From Rhodoglobus vestalii (GTDB lineage Bacteria > Actinomycetota > Actinomycetes > Actinomycetales > Microbacteriaceae), in the NCBI RefSeq assembly GCF_006788895.1, contig NZ_VFRA01000001.1, forward strand, positions 620,001 through 684,000: 64,000 nucleotides of DNA. Reading direction: 5' to 3'. The notes under the pieces are model-generated. The model ran no database searches. It was not told where the DNA came from and saw nothing but the letters and a program-made list of their open reading frames with translations. Both the position numbers and the translations under genes were made by a program. Positions 30,262-45,811 of the stretch are shown here, piece after piece (the first letter of the stretch is position 1; the number at the start of each line of letters is the position of its first letter).

Positions 30262-30636
30262 TGGTGGAGATGGGGGGAATTGAACCCCCGTCCACTGCTG
30301 TAATTCCATGCCTTCTACGGGTGTAGCTTGTGCAGACGTTCTACTCGGCTCTGATCTTTGCCACAAGCACCTAGATCAACAAGCCCAGCCAGAGTGCAAG
30401 TCCCACGTAGCCCTCAGGCGTAACTACGCAGCAATCTCTCTAAATTGCGCCAGGATTCGGGTAGAGAGCATTCCCGATCTGACGGACTTCTTTAGTGCGC
30501 TCGCTTAGGCAGCGAGGGCGAAGTCAGTGCGCTTTGAATTGGCACTTATAGTTTGCAGTCATCGTTAACGAGATAAGGCTGCATTCTCGACCCGCTTCTC
30601 ATCGTTTTGCAGGCAATGTCGAAACCGATCATCCCC
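30262..30636 (-). ncRNA. ssrA: transfer-messenger RNA
   Basis: About 375 nt. The 5' GGGGATGATCGGTTTCGACA pairs with the 3' CATCTCC-ACCA to form the acceptor stem, and the T-arm GTTCAATTCC is present. The tag frame (30543-30505) encodes ANSKRTDFALAA followed by TAA, a proteolysis tag ending in the expected LAA. Its partner smpB lies about 0.4 kb away. It rescues stalled ribosomes. Confidence 0.96.
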
Positions 30637-38595: not shown

Positions 38596-40464
38596 CTACT
38601 CCTTCGACGCGTCTCGCTTGCTTTTAGCGTTGGAATCCCTCTGCTCTGCCTGAACCGACCGCACTTCGTCCTCAGCGATAGCGTCAGTCTGAGCAAGCTC
38701 GTCGGGCGAGCCCCCCCTCGTGTCGGCAAGGATCGCGTTCTCGGTGCCCTGCGAGATCCCCGCACCGGTCGGCCCCGCTTTCTGTCGCAACCGATCGAGG
38801 GCAGCCCGAAGCGGGTGGGCAGGCTCGCGAAGGAGTGGCTCTTCGACTTCAAGCCCGTAAAACTCACCAATGTGATCGACGAACTGGGCGCGTCGAGCCT
38901 TTTCGTAAGCGCGACGTTCCCGACTAAACGCCGTCACGGTGGCCGCACACATCATCAGCATTACGACACTGAAGGGAAGGGCAGAAAGTATCGCCGCGGT
39001 TTGCAGGGTTTGTAGGCCGCCCGTAATCAGCAGTGCGATCGCCAAGAACGAGGCGAGCAGCGCGAAGAAGATCCGGATACGTTTGGGGGGTTCGGTAGCG
39101 CCACCGGTCGCAATCATCGACATCACCAGTGCGCCCGAATCGGCCGAAGTGACAAAGAAGATTCCAATAAGCAGGATGGCGCCAAAGGTGAGCACTGTCC
39201 CGGCCGGCAACCCGGCGAAGAGGTCGAACAGGGCAGAGTCGGCATCCACTGATCCGTCTGCGGCGATGAGGCCACCCTGACCGTAAAGTTCACGATAGAT
39301 CGCATTTCCCCCGAGCACGCTGAACCAGAGGAAAGTAAGAACGGTGGGGACAAGCATCACGCCGCCGACAAACTCGCGCACGGTACGCCCCTTTGATACC
39401 CGCGCAATGAAGACACCGACGAAGGGTGCCCACGACATCCACCAGCCCCAGTAGAAGGTGGTCCACCCGGCCTGCCACTGCTCGCCCGCTTCGCCCGCGT
39501 AAGCACTGACAGTAAAGCTGAGCCCAATGAAGTTTTGCAAATAGTTGCCCATTGACTGCACAAACTCGCGGAACAGGAACGTGGTGGGGCCAACGATCAG
39601 AAGAAATACCAGCAGCACCGCTGCGAGCAGCAGGTTGGTAGTGGACAACCATTTCATTCCGCGGCCGATGCCCGTCACGAGTGACGCAATCGTGAACGCC
39701 ACGATCACGATGATGACAATGATCTGCGTGCTGAGGTTGGCCTCGGCAATACCCGTTTTCTCCAGACCCGCCGATATCTGCAAAACGCCCAAACCCAGCG
39801 ACGTCGCAACACCAAAGACCGTGCCAACGAGAGCGATGACGTCAATGAGATTGCCCCAGCCGCCATGCACCCGCTTGCCGAGTAGCGGCTCAAGTGTCCA
39901 ACGGATCGAAATGGGCCTCCCGCGACGGTGGATTGCGTAGGCGAGCGCAAGCCCGACAACCACATAAATGGCCCACGCATGCACGCCCCAATGAAGGAAC
40001 GTTTGACTCATCGCTTGCTGCGCGAGTTCAATTTCGTTGCCAGTGACTCCCGGGCGCGGGTTCGCGAAATGGCTGAGAGGCTCAGCGACTCCGTAGAAAA
40101 CAAGGCCGATACCCATCCCAGCGGCAAAAAGAAATGAGATCCACGCAAGCATCGAGAACTCGGGCTCGTCCTCATCCTTGCCCAGTTTGATATCGCCGAA
40201 ACGGCTAAATCCTAGCCAGAGCGCAAACGCAACAAAGAATGCAGCGATGAGAACGTAATACCAACTGAATGAGTTGACGACACTTGACTGAAGGGTGTCG
40301 AATACATTTTTTGCGATCGTCGGCGTAACCATCGAGAAAGCTGTGATCGCAATAACCAGGCCGGCAGCAGGCCAAAACACCCACGGCGCCAACAGCCGAC
40401 TAGCGGTGGGCGGCGCAGGCATCCCGATCCCGGGTTGCGTAGAACCGTTCGATCCTGCAGTCAT
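38596..40464 (-). CDS. BCCT-family glycine betaine/choline/carnitine transporter
   Basis: 622 aa with about 12 TMs. Family signatures: NSFSWYYVLIAAFFVAFALWLGFSRFG, FAAGMGIGLVFYGVAEPLSHF (about residues 114-134), and the TM8 Trp-rich block FYWGWWMSWAPFVGVFIARVSKG. It takes up compatible solutes with Na+ or H+. The long C-terminal cytoplasmic tail (about 530-622), rich in charged residues, suggests osmoregulation as in BetP. It interrupts the Tad locus between the tadC end copy (40641) and the pilin-like gene. Confidence 0.93.
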   Translation of the reverse strand: MTAGSNGSTQPGIGMPAPPTASRLLAPWVFWPAAGLVIAITAFSMVTPTIAKNVFDTLQSSVVNSFSWYYVLIAAFFVAFALWLGFSRFGDIKLGKDEDEPEFSMLAWISFLFAAGMGIGLVFYGVAEPLSHFANPRPGVTGNEIELAQQAMSQTFLHWGVHAWAIYVVVGLALAYAIHRRGRPISIRWTLEPLLGKRVHGGWGNLIDVIALVGTVFGVATSLGLGVLQISAGLEKTGIAEANLSTQIIVIIVIVAFTIASLVTGIGRGMKWLSTTNLLLAAVLLVFLLIVGPTTFLFREFVQSMGNYLQNFIGLSFTVSAYAGEAGEQWQAGWTTFYWGWWMSWAPFVGVFIARVSKGRTVREFVGGVMLVPTVLTFLWFSVLGGNAIYRELYGQGGLIAADGSVDADSALFDLFAGLPAGTVLTFGAILLIGIFFVTSADSGALVMSMIATGGATEPPKRIRIFFALLASFLAIALLITGGLQTLQTAAILSALPFSVVMLMMCAATVTAFSRERRAYEKARRAQFVDHIGEFYGLEVEEPLLREPAHPLRAALDRLRQKAGPTGAGISQGTENAILADTRGGSPDELAQTDAIAEDEVRSVQAEQRDSNAKSKRDASKE

Positions 40465-40640: not shown

Positions 40641-40739
40641 AGAACCCGACCTGCAGCACAAAGATACCCGGGAAGATCGCGAAAGCTATCGTGATGGGCA
40701 AAATAAGGAATACAAGAGGGAAGGTACCGGGACTAAAAC
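40641..40739 (-). repeat. tadC 3'-end copy A (outer boundary)
   Basis: Bases 40641-40704 are identical to 44875-44938. The next coding-upstream stretch (to 40723) still encodes FPLVFL but differs from tadC only at synonymous third positions (Pro, Val, Leu codons). Beyond that, 40718-40739 is a 22-bp sequence shared with copy B and absent from tadC. The stop here is TGA rather than TAG. Confidence 0.85.
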
Positions 40740-41013
40740 ACGCATTGCGCTGCTAAGGGTTGCGGAGTGAGCTGAGCGGGCGTGCCGATCTCGAATCATT
40801 AAAAAGATTTTCGGAGTGACGTAGCAAGATTTCAGAGCCCTCAACCTCAAACGTCTGAGTCTCGTTTGGTGTTTAGCACCCGCGCGGCGGTTGGGCTTAC
40901 CCTTTTCGCCAGCCGCCACTCTAGGGCGAACGGCCGTGACCGTCCGAGAAACTCGTGGGCCCCTAAAGCCTCACCAAACCGCATCCTGAACACTCCCAGA
41001 CGACCGTGCTGCC
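40740..41013. other. cassette 1 leading segment, no gene seen
   Basis: Between copy A and the small VAL-repeat frame. I see no supported coding region, RNA or clear terminator. Confidence 0.4.
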
Positions 41014-41205
41014 ATGCTCGACAGGCTCCATGCGGATCAGGCAACGCTCACAGTTCGCGGTATCGAGGTCGTCGCTCTCGTCGCTCTCGTCGCTCTCGTC
41101 GCTCTCGTCGCTCTCGTCATTCTCTTACTTGTGTCTCAGCATTATTCGGGAGCCCTCGCGGAATATAGACGAATAAGAGTACGAGGAAGAGGGATAACGT
41201 TCTGA
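41014..41205 (+). CDS. hypothetical single-TM microprotein with (VAL)n repeat
   Basis: 63 codons. It has an N-terminal soluble part (MLDRLHADQATLTVRGIE), a hydrophobic stretch built from Val-Ala-Leu units encoded by a 9-bp tandem repeat (VVALVALVALVALVALVILLLV), then a basic C-terminus (EYRRIRVRGRG). That topology would suit a membrane microprotein, but no homologue is known to me and no good ribosome site is visible. It may be a chance frame over a microsatellite. Confidence 0.25.
   Translation: MLDRLHADQATLTVRGIEVVALVALVALVALVALVILLLVSQHYSGALAEYRRIRVRGRGITF
41069..41120. repeat. 9-bp tandem repeat (gtcgctctc)n
   Basis: About five perfect head-to-tail copies of gtcgctctc plus partial ends. 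The period of three codons means copy-number change would keep frame in the overlapping small open frame (41014-41205). Confidence 0.9.
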
Positions 41206-41258
41206 TTACGCAGGGTCTGAGTTTCACGGATGTCAGAAGGTCACGACATGCTGAGGTC

Positions 41259-42086
41259 ATGACTATCCCACCCGCAGACCAAGAATCCCAACCGAATCTT
41301 CCCCCACAGGCAGCTAGTCCTGCGAAAGAGAAGAACGTCCTCGGCATCACCGCCTTCATAGTAGCGATCGTCGGGTTCGTCTTCGCCTGCATCCCGGGCG
41401 CACTTATTGTCGGTTGGATTCTTTTGCCAATCGCATTCATCCTCGCGATCGTCGCTCTCTTCCTCAAGGGAAAAAGCAAGACGCTTGCCCTCATAGGGCT
41501 CATCATCTCAGTTCTCGGGACCATCGTCGGCGCGGTCGTATTCACGGCCGTAGTAGCCAACGCATTCGACGACGCTTTCTCAGGCGGGGACACAACGGTG
41601 GCAGCCCCCGAAGGCCAAACTGAGGAAACTGAGGAAAGTGAAAAAGCTGACGACGAGCAGGGGACACGCGCAAACCCGTACCCGATCGGCAGCGCGATCA
41701 CGCAAGGAGACTGGACAGTCACCATTAACAGCGTGAATCTTGATGCGACCGACGAACTCCTTGAAGACAACATGTTCAACGACGCGCCTGACGCTGGCAG
41801 CGTCTATATCCTCGTGAACATGACAGCCACCTACAACGGCACCGACCCAGACGGTGACTCGGTCTGGGCCACAGTCAACTACATCACCGCGGACGGGAAC
41901 ACCATCGACGGCCTTGCAAAGTTTATTTCGGCACCAGAGCCATTCGAAAGCCTCTCTACCCTTTATGAAGGGGCATCAATTACCGGCAATCAAGCGTTAC
42001 AAGTACCCGCCGACACCGCAGCCGACGGAGTCCTCGCAGTCAATCCGACAATGATGGGCGACAAGGTGTTCGTCGCCGTCAAATAA
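41259..42086 (+). CDS. DUF4190/DUF4352-like membrane-anchored protein
   Basis: 275 aa. A Pro/Gln-rich N-terminus (1-27), then two to three TMs (about 27-100: VLGITAFIVAIVGFVFACIPG, LIGLIISVLGTIVGAVVF) in the DUF4190-like pattern, an acidic linker (EGQTEETEESEKADDEQG, about 118-135), and an extracytoplasmic beta-sandwich-like domain (about 140-275; WTVTINSVNLDA, YILVNMTATYNGTD) resembling DUF4352. Function unknown; such proteins are thought to be surface-exposed. It is the main cargo of cassette 1 and is followed by a terminator. Confidence 0.7.
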   Translation: MTIPPADQESQPNLPPQAASPAKEKNVLGITAFIVAIVGFVFACIPGALIVGWILLPIAFILAIVALFLKGKSKTLALIGLIISVLGTIVGAVVFTAVVANAFDDAFSGGDTTVAAPEGQTEETEESEKADDEQGTRANPYPIGSAITQGDWTVTINSVNLDATDELLEDNMFNDAPDAGSVYILVNMTATYNGTDPDGDSVWATVNYITADGNTIDGLAKFISAPEPFESLSTLYEGASITGNQALQVPADTAADGVLAVNPTMMGDKVFVAVK

Positions 42087-42102
42087 CCTCGCCTCATCAA
42101 CC

Positions 42103-42140
42103 GGACCCCCTCGCTGGATCTTCAGCAGGGGGTCCCTCTG
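42103..42140 (+). terminator. terminator after the DUF4352-like gene
   Basis: Stem ggaccccctcgctg / cagcagggggtcc (one bulged base) with a 6-base loop, followed by a pyrimidine-rich run (ctctgctttt). 17 bp past the stop. Confidence 0.75.
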
Positions 42141-42290
42141 CTTTTCCGAAGAAAGATCGAGAGCAGAACGTTTATGGCGACCACACGCAACGACCACAGT
42201 GAGATGCATGTGGTTACAAGGTGATGTTCATGCCAGGTTCTTTCTAGGGCGTGCGTGGGGGGACAGGCCGCTGTGAGCGCCTTAGAGAAA

Positions 42291-42354
42291 TTCCCCGAAA
42301 GCGATCGTGATGGGTAAAATTAGAAACTAAGCGGGAAGGTACCGGGACTAAAAC
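42291..42354 (-). repeat. tadC 3'-end copy B (degenerate, internal)
   Basis: Matches tadC over tatcgtgatgggcaaaattag-like sequence with several substitutions and lacks the last ~35 bp of the gene end. Its other side (42333-42354) is identical over 22 bp to copy A (40718-40739), a sequence not in tadC. It marks the junction between cassettes 1 and 2. Confidence 0.75.
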
Positions 42355-42486
42355 CCTCATTTTTTTGCGAATCAAAGAGTCACGCAATGAGGAGCTTCTA
42401 AGGGATCACAGCGCAGGCAGAGATGAGTCAACGGCAAGAAACGGGGCTGATGATCCTGCCGTTGGCAAAGCTGCAAGAGAGGTCGC

Positions 42487-43164
42487 TCACTGTCGCTCCT
42501 GTGCTGTTCCCAGAGTCTTGACGAAGTTGCGCAGGTCAGGGAGTTTCGGCACATCAACCCATAAGCGGATGCTGTTCTCGATTACAGAAGTACCACCGAT
42601 TTGAAATGAATCGAACGGCAATGGGTCGAGGATTGGCGCCAATGCTGCCGCTTTCGCTGCCGAAATATAGCCCATTTTTCGACCCTTGCCATAGACAGCT
42701 ACTGCGTTTACGTCGAACTTGTTCTTTGGTTCTCGAACGAGGAGGTAGTCAGTGCCGCCATATTTCGCGCGTTGCTTGTCGGTCACCCAGTTCGCGGATC
42801 CAACGACCCGCATTCGAGTAGATGCAACGGAGCGAAGATCTAAAATCTCCCGCGAGTCTAAGTTAATTTTTGCGACCTTCGCCGGATTCTCACGCGCATA
42901 AGCGCGGCGGTCTTCCGCTTCCGAGATTTTCACGTGTTCGTCAAGGACATCGAAGAGGCTGATCCCATGTCTGTCCGCTACTCGGGCCTTTACGTCCCAG
43001 TGTGACTCGTCGGGTTCGGCTGCTTCGGCATCGACCATCTCCTGAGCGATCGCTGATCGTTCCGCCGCAGACAGCTTTGGTTTCGGGACAGCGGGAGAAA
43101 TCACATCTTGGACGCGCTCGGGTCGGGCGGACAATACTCGCCATGCTTCACGGAGGAATCCCAT
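42487..43164 (-). CDS. HIRAN-domain hypothetical protein
   Basis: 225 aa. An N-terminal helical region (about 1-110; MGFLREAWRVLSARPERVQD) is followed by a HIRAN-like domain (about 120-200): MRVVGSANW, then VREPKNKFDVNAVAVYGKGR and MGYISAAKAAALAPIL. HIRAN domains bind DNA ends or stalled-fork DNA and are found with helicases or alone in phage and mobile regions. The frame extends to 43305 through a G-run, but ATG 43164 is the better start. Main cargo of cassette 2. Confidence 0.65.
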   Translation of the reverse strand: MGFLREAWRVLSARPERVQDVISPAVPKPKLSAAERSAIAQEMVDAEAAEPDESHWDVKARVADRHGISLFDVLDEHVKISEAEDRRAYARENPAKVAKINLDSREILDLRSVASTRMRVVGSANWVTDKQRAKYGGTDYLLVREPKNKFDVNAVAVYGKGRKMGYISAAKAAALAPILDPLPFDSFQIGGTSVIENSIRLWVDVPKLPDLRNFVKTLGTAQERQ

Positions 43165-43365
43165 GCTCGGATAGTAGCGCAGCGCTGTCGGGGCGGGGGG
43201 GGGCGAGTGGCCATGCCCTCTATTGTTTGGATTGCGGGAGCGCGTGTGATTCCGTCCCGAAAGAATCGAAAGGCCCGCCGGCTCATCAAGGATTTTGGGC
43301 GCCACTCGCCGCCTCAGTCGCTTACTGCTTGGCGGACGCCGCCGCGGCTGGTGAGCGCACCTAAA

Positions 43366-43911
43366 TCACTTCGTGTGTCGAGCCAATGAAAGACCGCAGA
43401 CAACGCAAGCGATATCCGCCCGGAAACGTAGACCGGCCCACGAATCCACCTCGCTTGTGCCATACAAGTGGATGGGCGCTTGGGATTGACTGCGAGAAAT
43501 TGCCGCCCAAGCCTCCTTGAGTTCGATCGAGCCAATGCTGGCCTCGCGAGCCAAGGTGTGCGAAAGTGCGGCTTACTGGGCTTCGGAGATATTGAACACC
43601 ACGGGATAAGGCTTCCGAAGACTCCTGTGCAGACGTAATACAAGCCCACATGTCATACACGCGGTGTTTTCCCGGTGGCCAGGGACCGACGTCTCTTCCC
43701 AAGCTGAATATTCGTGGTCGGTTGCGACGTGAAATGCCATGCTGATCCGTGACCATGCCGCCGACAGGGCACGATCGTCCTTCAGCCGGTACCACATCTC
43801 AAACAGCGCCTTGTCGTGCGCCTCCGTGAGACGGACTACTAGTGTGTTCCCCCTGGTCTGCCCCTGCACCTTCGGGAGCATCGGCTTCGATGTGCTTCGG
43901 CGAAAAAACAA
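43366..43911 (-). pseudogene. broken gene with two CxxC-GL-x-L-x3-H repeats
   Basis: One reading frame spans the region but is interrupted by TAA at 43575-43573. Part 1 (to 43573; starts TTG 43911 or ATG 43881) ends near ENTACMTCGLVLRLHRSL; part 2 (43572-43366) ends DIACVVCGLSLARHTK. The two halves share W...AC-x2-CGL-x-L-x2-H, like a duplicated zinc-ribbon-like unit. Either a nonsense mutation split a two-repeat gene, or two small ORFs exist. Family not recognised. Confidence 0.45.
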
Positions 43912-43994
43912 TACGACTCCAAGTCTTCAGGTCGATGACCAAGTTGCGATGTCGACAATGCCTAGACTCTAGCTCCCTTCAGATCACCAGCGCT

Positions 43995-44073
43995 AGAACC
44001 CCACCTGCAGCACAGAAATCCCGGGGAAAGATCGCGGAAGCGTTCGCAATCAGCAAGATCAAAAACAGCGGGC
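43995..44073 (-). repeat. tadC 3'-end copy C (degenerate, internal)
   Basis: About 80 bp aligns to the tadC 3' end (ctgcagcaca, cgggaagatcgcg-like blocks and the ctagaacc end) with scattered substitutions and small indels. The C-terminal peptide frame is broken. It marks the boundary between cassettes 2 and 3. Confidence 0.7.
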
Positions 44074-44340
44074 TAAGCAATTAAATAGGACTCTTTAGCT
44101 CCCGTTTGGCCTAGCGCTTCGGCTGACGTCAACTGCGTAAGTGACGCGGCGCTGCACCTTTGACGCACGCATCCGTAGTGCGATGATTGTGCGAAGCGCC
44201 TCCCTGCTGGCCCTGAACGTCGCCTTCGGATCGCCGAGGAGGCGTACGATCTCATCGCAGGTGAAGTTCGTCCCTTCCTCGCCGCCGGCGGCCGATCGTG
44301 GTCTAAAGGTTCGCGAGGATACCCAACTCGGCTTCGTCAG

Positions 44341-44730
44341 ATGATTCAAGGCCTTGACGACGCTCACGCCGTAGTGTTGGCGACGGGCGATGCGATGCAA
44401 CTAGACCGTGATCAGCGAATCGTGGAGCACGTCATCCCAATGAAGCGGATCGTGATCGAGATTGTTGACCCGCGTGAGGCCGACCCCCGCTCGAACTCCG
44501 TCTCCGACCCGATTGCCGGCGGACCGGCGATATCTCCGGAACACCTGATCTCGATCTTCGATCGGCTCCTCGTAAAGTGCTGGGTTACCGCTGACGAGCA
44601 CGACCGACTGAATCGCACAGGCCGAAGCTTCCAATGGGACGCCCCCGATGGCGATGGATGGTCCCGATACAGGCAGGCAGGCGTCACTGCGTACCAGCTC
44701 ACTACCGACGGCGACTTGCTGCACGATTAG
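44341..44730 (+). CDS. hypothetical protein, probably 5'-truncated
   Basis: 129 aa from ATG 44341, with QRIVEHVIPMKRIVIEIVDP in the middle and ADEHDRLNRTGRSFQWDAPDGDGWSRYRQAGV near the end. The same frame is open back to 44179, directly after TAG 44176-44178, and reads protein-like (RIAEEAYDLIAGEVRPFLAAGG), but offers no ATG, GTG or TTG there, so the true 5' end seems lost. No family recognised. Sole cargo of cassette 3, next to intact tadC. Confidence 0.4.
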   Translation: MIQGLDDAHAVVLATGDAMQLDRDQRIVEHVIPMKRIVIEIVDPREADPRSNSVSDPIAGGPAISPEHLISIFDRLLVKCWVTADEHDRLNRTGRSFQWDAPDGDGWSRYRQAGVTAYQLTTDGDLLHD

Positions 44731-44872
44731 ACACCCGCTCCGCGAATCAAAAAAATCAGCATTCATCGGCGAATGGCTTGGTGACGTGGCGACTCCACGT
44801 CGGCATCGACCACGCGACCCGTGACAAACGATTTGTGACCGGGAGACTTCCGGAACGGGCTGGAGTCGGACC

Positions 44873-45811
44873 CTAGAACCCGACCTGCAGCACAAAGATA
44901 CCCGGGAAGATCGCGAAAGCTATCGTGATGGGCAAAATTAGGAAAACAAGCGGGAAGAGCATCGCGACCTCCTTCTTGCCGGCGAGTTCCAGCAGTTCCC
45001 GCTTGGATTCCTCGCGAGCATCCTGTGCCTGGGCTTGCAGCACATCGGACAGCGGAGACCCACGATCAAGTGCCCCCAGTATCTGATCAACACAGCGCCC
45101 AAACGGTGCGAGCTCCAGTTCGCGGGAGAGAGCACCCAGGGTTTCTCCAAACGGAAGACCCGTGTTGACCGATGCGACAACGCGGGCAAGCTCTCGGGAA
45201 AGTTCGCCGCCGCTGACCTGAGAAACCCGACGCACGGCATCCAGTATCCCTTCACCAGCGGACAGGCTCAGCGCTAAGAACTCAAGAACCACCGGCAACT
45301 CAGCCGTGAGACGGCGGATTCGTTGCTTAGCCGAACGTTGGAGCAAGTAATCACGGCCGGCTATGCCCGCCGCGGCCCCCACAAAAACAAGCACAAGCTG
45401 GGCGACTAGGGGCACCTGCTGTGCGTTGGCAATCGTGATGTTGAAGACGATCCCGAGCAGTGCGCCGGCAAGTCCCGCCAGCAGTTGCTGGGACCGGTAC
45501 GCCTCAACACTTAGCTCGAAACCCGCCTGACGCAGCCTGCGCGCAATCTGATCGCCGCCACCAACAACGGTCGACAAAGTGCCCCGCAACCAGCGGCCAA
45601 TGGGAAGCAGCAGCACGCCAAGCACCGGTAGCGGTGCGATTGAACGCGGCGACACGTGTGCGCGTGCGCCAGCCGAGACATCGATCACATACGGCGCAAC
45701 ACGATTTGCCAGAGTGGGGCGGCTCAGCCTCGGGATGAGGCTGAGAACCGACCACAGCCCCAACCCGCCAGCAATACCGGCAAGGATCGCCCACGCGAGA
45801 GTGTCACTCAT
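44873..45811 (-). CDS. tadC: Tad pilus/type II secretion F-domain membrane protein TadC
   Basis: 312 aa. N-terminal TM (LAWAILAGIAGGLGLWSVL), a cytoplasmic T2SSF domain (about 105-270: ELPVVLEFLALSLSAGEGILDAVRRV, ALDRGSPLSDVLQAQAQD) and C-terminal TMs ending KKEVAMLFPLVFLILPI. ATG 45811 overlaps the tadB stop (ATGA); the longer frame to 45973 lies in tadB. Its last 64 bp are the repeat that bounds the inserted cassettes, yet the protein end is intact. Confidence 0.88.
   Translation of the reverse strand: MSDTLAWAILAGIAGGLGLWSVLSLIPRLSRPTLANRVAPYVIDVSAGARAHVSPRSIAPLPVLGVLLLPIGRWLRGTLSTVVGGGDQIARRLRQAGFELSVEAYRSQQLLAGLAGALLGIVFNITIANAQQVPLVAQLVLVFVGAAAGIAGRDYLLQRSAKQRIRRLTAELPVVLEFLALSLSAGEGILDAVRRVSQVSGGELSRELARVVASVNTGLPFGETLGALSRELELAPFGRCVDQILGALDRGSPLSDVLQAQAQDAREESKRELLELAGKKEVAMLFPLVFLILPITIAFAIFPGIFVLQVGF
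44875..44938 (-). repeat. tadC 3'-end copy D (in the intact gene)
   Basis: The 64 bases preceding and including part of the tadC stop, perfectly repeated at 40641-40704 in the same orientation. Sequence identity ends one codon outside the gene, so the recombination site lies within the coding end. Confidence 0.9.

Follow-up and report, generated by a model that had tools for sequence, protein, structure and literature searches.

The locus studied here, the 3' end of the Tad pilus gene tadC in Rhodoglobus vestalii, raises the question of how 4.2 kb of cargo came to be bounded by copies of the gene's own end, and how the gene itself stayed whole. The genome (G000; 2.84 Mb, single contig) was analysed in a window of 64 kb, the whole stretch of DNA under study, to which all positions below refer; the array corresponds to C1:660641-664957 in the coordinates of the genome. 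An earlier note on this DNA had proposed att-type insertion at the tadC 3' end, and comparison with relatives bears this out, with non-tadC sequences beside the displaced tadC ends matching the junctions of large serine recombinase (LSR) elements at the same codon. We put the probability that LSR attachment is the origin of the array boundaries at roughly three in four, judging from these sequence comparisons.

Displaced tadC ends and their arms

The intact tadC gene (44873-45811, minus strand; stop codon at 44873-44875) has a complete translation of 312 aa with a T2SSF domain (PF00482, E 7.6e-18). Its end forms one half of a direct repeat (40641-40723 and 44875-44957; 83 nt, 96% identity, 3 mismatches), and the perfect 64-nt run that the earlier note had seen bounding 4.2 kb lies within it. 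Searching the genome with the 85-nt tadC end returned four places, all in the array, namely tadC and three displaced copies. Copy 1 (40641-40719, minus strand; match at 40641-40723, 96% over 83 nt, E 1.4e-33) adjoins a BCCT transporter gene. Copy 2 (42296-42334, minus strand; match at 42296-42338, 89% over 44 nt, E 9.5e-9) is shortened, and copy 3 (43993-44071, minus strand; match at 43993-44072, 78%, E 2.2e-10) is degenerate. Because this search finds only places in the array, the degenerate tail copies are non-random. They split the cargo into three units, as had been claimed, and the full C-terminus of TadC and the displaced end at the far side were likewise confirmed.

Each copy is bordered on its tadC-facing side by sequence that is not tadC, referred to here as an arm. 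The arms of copies 1 and 2 are identical over 20 bp (class I, GTTTTAGTCCCGGTACCTTC; 40720-40739 and 42335-42354, respectively, minus strand) and that of copy 3 is different (class II, AAAGAGTCCTATTTAATTGCTTAGC; 44072-44096, minus strand). With repeats and arms as boundaries, unit 3 (44071-44952) consists of the tadC tail in use, cargo and the class II arm; unit 2 (42334-44070) of tail copy 3, cargo and a class I arm; and unit 1 (40719-42333) of tail copy 2, cargo and a class I arm.

Serine recombinases at the Pro287 codon

In strain PHSC20C1 of the same genus (G005), a 21-kb element carrying an LSR splits tadC at about codon 287. The tadC match ends at residue 289, the only tail is displaced, 21 kb away, and 22 kb separate the tadC body from the next syntenic gene. 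The gene adjoining the displaced tail encodes the LSR (PF00239, PF07508 and PF13408). Used as a query against 398 Microbacteriaceae genomes, this protein gave matches in 43 of them at E ≤ 1e-40. A tad gene adjoins 17 of the 30 LSR loci scanned (ten at this tadC site, one at tadC residue ~297 in G301, four at flp and two at tadA), a share biased upward since the query is itself a tadC LSR. The tadC body is cut short in all ten elements at this tadC site, with removal of the last 25 TadC residues. The LSR lies at the right end in seven of the ten and at the left in three (G139, G386 and G102), and the seven elements with both ends seen measure 8.4-21 kb. The earlier note had looked to relatives for a tyrosine recombinase next to the repeat; a recombinase is indeed there, but it is a large serine one, and the LSR is the most likely enzyme class behind the array boundaries.

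The arms link the window to these elements. Arm-to-arm scores cover 24 positions and take the best of 7 shifts (45 pairs compared), and mirror scores use a fixed register. The class I arm matches the right junction of PHSC20C1 at 17/24 (copy 1) and 18/24 (copy 2), values that random pairs reach in 3e-4 and 5e-5 of draws, respectively, and copy 1 with its arm aligns with this junction over 98 nt at 82.7%. The same arm also matches the mirrored left junction of PHSC20C1 at 17/24 (copy 1) and 16/24 (copy 2), including GTTTTAGTCCCG at 12/12 in register; PHSC20C1's own two arms match each other at 12/24, below these values. With up to 3 mismatches allowed, the class I 21-mer occurs at four places in 27 genomes of the genus (twice in the window, once at the PHSC20C1 junction and once in G012), three of them at tadC; no tad or LSR match was found within the 3 kb examined around the G012 place. 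The outer two window units carry the PHSC20C1-type arm and the inner unit a second type.

This second, class II arm (pattern with the right spacing, AAGAGTCCTATTTNNNNGNNNAGCCC) has its counterparts in G136, from another genus (18/24, with an identical 14-mer), and in G020 (17/24), and scores ≤13/24 against the copies in G021. The class II arms of G020 and G136 each mirror the left junction beside the LSR of G102 at 15/24, the G102 element having been compared by its left-junction arm as its far side is composite, and they mirror the left junction of G386 at 15 and 12. Arms of both classes stop at the tadC codon for Pro287, which also holds the LSR junctions. The ends of the window units thus resemble attP half-sites of an LSR inserting at the same site, clearly for class I and more weakly for class II.

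The arms also bear on a simpler explanation. Copy 1 resembles the tail in use closely enough (96% over 83 nt) to suggest a local duplication of the tadC end without any exchange of cargo, an origin that the earlier note had weighed against its own proposal. This is very improbable, as the copies carry non-tadC arms that are common to several species and to LSR junctions, and the cargo differs among genomes.

Tyrosine integrases typically insert at the 3' end of a gene and restore it, and tyrosine-recombinase islands or integron cassettes would account for the whole tadC of the window. None of the 15 PF00589 matches in the window genome lies in the array, in agreement with the earlier claim that no integrase is encoded there. 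Equally, no PF00589 was present in the tadC-flp interval among the matches listed for the 27 genus genomes, and at the very site LSRs are found in ten genomes. A tyrosine recombinase was accordingly rejected as the agent, and islands or cassettes of this kind are most unlikely to explain the array. Outside the window, the genome does contain two clusters of neighbouring tyrosine recombinase genes (C1:1392401-1394514 and 1410556-1416802), reminiscent of recombinase-in-trio elements.

The LSRs at flp (L120, L121, L122 and L131) or at tadA near residue 130 (L128 and L129) were observed in other genera. With LSRs at flp and tadA, several tad genes therefore serve as landing sites. The G380 LSR is separated by ~340 bp from a tadA match beginning at residue 207. 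A ~30-kb composite insertion in G102 (L084 and L146) has one LSR at the tadC end and a second LSR match beside a tadC remnant (residues 297-311) and flp. Among the proteins scanned, those of the PHSC20C1 element include a family A DNA polymerase, a type I restriction system and a small resolvase. The polymerase gene (L051:14715-16286, minus strand), beside the restriction system, also matches the PADLOC model for reverse-transcriptase-associated PolA. A primase-polymerase was among the scanned proteins of the G144 element. Phage relatives of the PHSC20C1 LSR amount to 1,291 records, all below 60% identity (33-35% among the 30 matches listed), and viral contigs gave no exact match to either arm and one distant LSR (27%).

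Units that leave tadC whole

Related genomes show the site both near-empty and with other cargo, the pattern that the earlier note had predicted for an insertion site, and the same 4.2 kb is not found in all of them. Between the tadC stop and the point where the flp match begins lie 33 bp in G019, 44 bp in G018 and 119 bp in G022, and up to several kb elsewhere. By DNA and protein search, tadC tails additional to that of the gene itself are present in 4 of the 27 genus genomes (the window genome, G020, G021 and G026). Scanning 25 tadC-flp gaps for degenerate tails gave values well above shuffled sequence in these same four only, a scan that misses copies as broken as window copy 2. The variable gaps in other relatives are, on this evidence, mostly not such cassettes. 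G136 holds a single unit made of tail, one 152-aa gene, arm and displaced tail. More than one tail match was also seen in G207, at contig ends, and in G160, where matches of equal score at C1:41146, C1:3157265 and C2:27277 are apparently whole-gene copies.

In the window's clade, the BCCT transporter gene (38596-40464) sits between tadC and flp. In G024 a dehydrogenase gene separates tadC from the BCCT gene, and PHSC20C1 has kept it. Its absence from the window locus (the best match to the G024 protein in the window genome, 42%, is located elsewhere) makes the window a less than perfectly clean insertion relative to G024.

The tail appears to travel with the unit. G020 and G021 have one unit in common over its full length, consisting of a tail, a gene of 118 aa and an arm (598 aligned nt, 66%). 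A second, partial copy of this unit in G021 (90% over 223 nt) is followed by an arm of its own. The 118-aa family has 8 members in the protein database and was found in one of 249 sampled genomes (G001), just downstream of tadC and without a visible arm. This repeated, sharply bounded unit favours mobile units. Of the 78 nt compared between the tail in use and its displaced counterpart, 62 are identical in G020, 66 in G136 and 75 in the window. The window differences are confined to the first 15 nt after the site and the stop codon, a pattern that hints at conversion or homologous exchange.

We propose that the Pro287 codon near the tadC 3' end would serve as attB for a group of LSRs in the Microbacteriaceae, and that autonomous LSR elements would insert there and truncate TadC. 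Each recombinase-less window unit begins with a tadC tail, the innermost of which completes the gene in use, and ends in an arm, the putative attP half-site, that is joined to a displaced tail. The units would then be non-autonomous attachment-site cassettes or decayed remnants, accumulated one after another. They may have entered through an LSR acting in trans or may descend from LSR elements by loss; they may still be mobile and may form one family. Three routes that would leave tadC whole remain and are not mutually exclusive: an LSR supplied in trans that acts on circles bearing an attR-like site, homologous exchange by way of the tail, and repair scars.

In the last of these, an LSR element would have broken tadC and DNA of a relative would have recombined in the tadC body and been joined downstream by chance. 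This would have given the gene its end back and eliminated most of the element, leaving the right junction and the displaced tail behind, so that repeated cycles would build an array. Such scars would explain the missing recombinase together with an intact tadC, the foreign-looking tails (the 62 of 78 nt in G020) and also G026, where the duplication starts from ~60 bp left of the site and has no arm. Yet no LSR gene remains in the units, which end within ~30 bp of the arm, and the unit of tail, 118-aa gene and arm, present in two species with a further partial copy in G021, would need the same accident repeatedly; we consider this account somewhat unlikely.

Homologous exchange starts from an existing tail-flanked unit, which RecA could spread as circles through the 60-98-bp tails without any recombinase. 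The window speaks for it, since its copy 1 departs from the tail in use only within the 15 nt that follow the site and at the stop codon, a pattern to be expected of exchange or conversion within the tail. In G020 and G021, by contrast, the differences are spread along the tail. As the origin of the arms is left unexplained, this process can only add to an LSR origin, and as the explanation it is unlikely.

Several observations weigh against an LSR origin of the boundaries. The array itself contains no LSR, and in the window genome the only match to the PHSC20C1 LSR at E ≤ 1e-40 (C1:2705947, 33% identity) lies outside it. The ten recombinase-bearing elements at the site all truncate tadC and none restores it, in contrast to the gene regeneration proposed earlier and to the whole tadC of the window. 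Known LSRs recombine attP with attB only and need a further factor for other pairings (PMC3783163); a one-unit circle would carry an attR-like site, at odds with this preference. Against the mirrored G102 and G386 arms, the arm of window copy 3 scores only 11 and 12 of 24, which makes an LSR less certain for class II. G026 has an extra tail without an arm, its duplication starting ~60 bp further left than the site; with no arm and a longer duplication, it is possibly a different event.

The crossover point is also less firm than the codon. When the arms of seven LSR elements were joined, the dyad centre C|C of codon 287 was the sole best position in four, part of a three-way tie in PHSC20C1, second in G259 and not the best in G246. 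By hand arithmetic, with any of 34 positions allowed, the chance of this is ~8e-4, although three of the four sole-best elements have similar arms, and the joined-arm scores themselves (10-15 of 24) fall within random expectation (null mean 12.8, 95% 15). Together with the LSR junctions and the arm ends in relatives, this weakly suggests one common crossover point at C|C in the Pro287 codon (44952-44953, minus strand).

The cargo of the window is small. Unit 3 has an ORF of 129 aa (44341-44730, plus strand) from a widespread protein family, most of whose 88 database relatives are longer (~178 aa); no Pfam, NCBIfam or PHROG match was found. Unit 2 encodes a HIRAN-domain protein (42487-43305, minus strand, start uncertain; PF08797, E 2.1e-9), and a relative of it (58%) lies at L138:10741-11099, near the tad locus of G134 and outside the LSR element. 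The ORF of unit 1 (41259-42086, plus strand; 275 aa) is DUF4352-like, with a 67.5% nucleotide match to a DUF4352-annotated gene on an Arthrobacter plasmid and with matches to PHROGs without known function; it has no Pfam match above cut-off. A relative (40%) is present at L127:5085-5885, near the tad locus of G131 and outside the LSR element. Just upstream of the unit 1 gene, a 9-bp repeat (TCGTCGCTC) forms a short array (41069-41122). As the array as a whole has no phage DNA match, and its single plasmid match is confined to the DUF4352 gene, a phage or plasmid origin of the whole array was rejected.

Known systems and the Tad pilus

Among known systems, the SCC (staphylococcal cassette chromosome) and pseudo-SCC elements of staphylococci use a serine recombinase, insert at the 3' end of rlmH (orfX) and form composite arrays with recombinase-less members. 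The window array is alike in its serine recombinase link, its protein-gene 3' end and its recombinase-less members, and differs in its target, tadC instead of the rlmH 3' end, and in the recombinase: the PHSC20C1 LSR scores 73.6 bits against the CcrB model, whose cut-off is 900, and lower against CcrA and CcrC. Cis-mobilizable elements (CIMEs) are bounded by att sites, have no recombinase and accrete at an occupied site. The window units likewise have att-like ends, no recombinase of their own and an occupied site; unlike CIMEs, the array holds no autonomous partner, the related LSR element being in another strain, PHSC20C1. Integron cassettes and tyrosine-recombinase islands differ in that no tyrosine recombinase is found at the site.

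The nearest structural analogue, alongside the SCC elements, is the set of ssrA islands of Dehalococcoides (PMC3146451). They too lie in tandem behind one single-copy gene, with displaced 3'-end repeats and a conserved motif beside each repeat, and have a CcrB-related serine recombinase, with some islands lacking the integration module. Their target, however, is a tmRNA gene with a 20-bp repeat, compared with a protein gene and a 60-80-bp tail here, and the window units are much smaller and the autonomous LSR elements break the gene. The tmRNA gene of the window (30262-30636) is away from the array. By analogy, the window units are best read as working in the manner of pseudo-SCC elements or of the ssrA islands, with tadC as a new target. 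A literature search that had subscription papers, preprints and supplements outside its scope found LSR insertion into tad genes nowhere reported.

Transformation of Micrococcus luteus was abolished when any tad gene other than tadB was deleted (PMC4322843). Competence genes are often broken by mobile elements (PMC4774983), and a strong enrichment of competence genes among LSR targets has been reported (PMC10083194); the words tad and pilus are absent from the main text of the last paper. As in the elements described there, insertion here is site-specific and into a gene whose relatives serve DNA uptake, whereas the target is an actinobacterial Tad pilus and the window units leave the gene whole. 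Because the Tad pilus is the competence pilus of M. luteus, the LSR elements of Microbacteriaceae, inserted in or beside tadC, flp and tadA, fit the idea of mobile elements that disable DNA uptake. The window array, with TadC whole, is the opposite outcome.

Tentatively, the array may be regarded as an integron-like, LSR-run cassette array at a competence-pilus gene. Recombinase-less and often single-gene cassettes would bring their own tadC 3' end, keep TadC whole and re-create the landing site, and autonomous LSR elements would switch the pilus off, with opposite effects on DNA uptake. The window units may also bring a benefit through the pilus or DNA uptake.

At a single codon, autonomous elements break the gene and recombinase-less units keep it, an unusual contrast and a clean experimental question. 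The paired arms with the tadC site provide candidate attP/attB pairs for LSRs. For the Microbacteriaceae, a large actinobacterial family, the analysis names a protein-gene landing site for integration and the enzyme class that probably uses it, and suggests that the disabling of DNA uptake by mobile elements may reach the Tad pilus of Actinobacteria.

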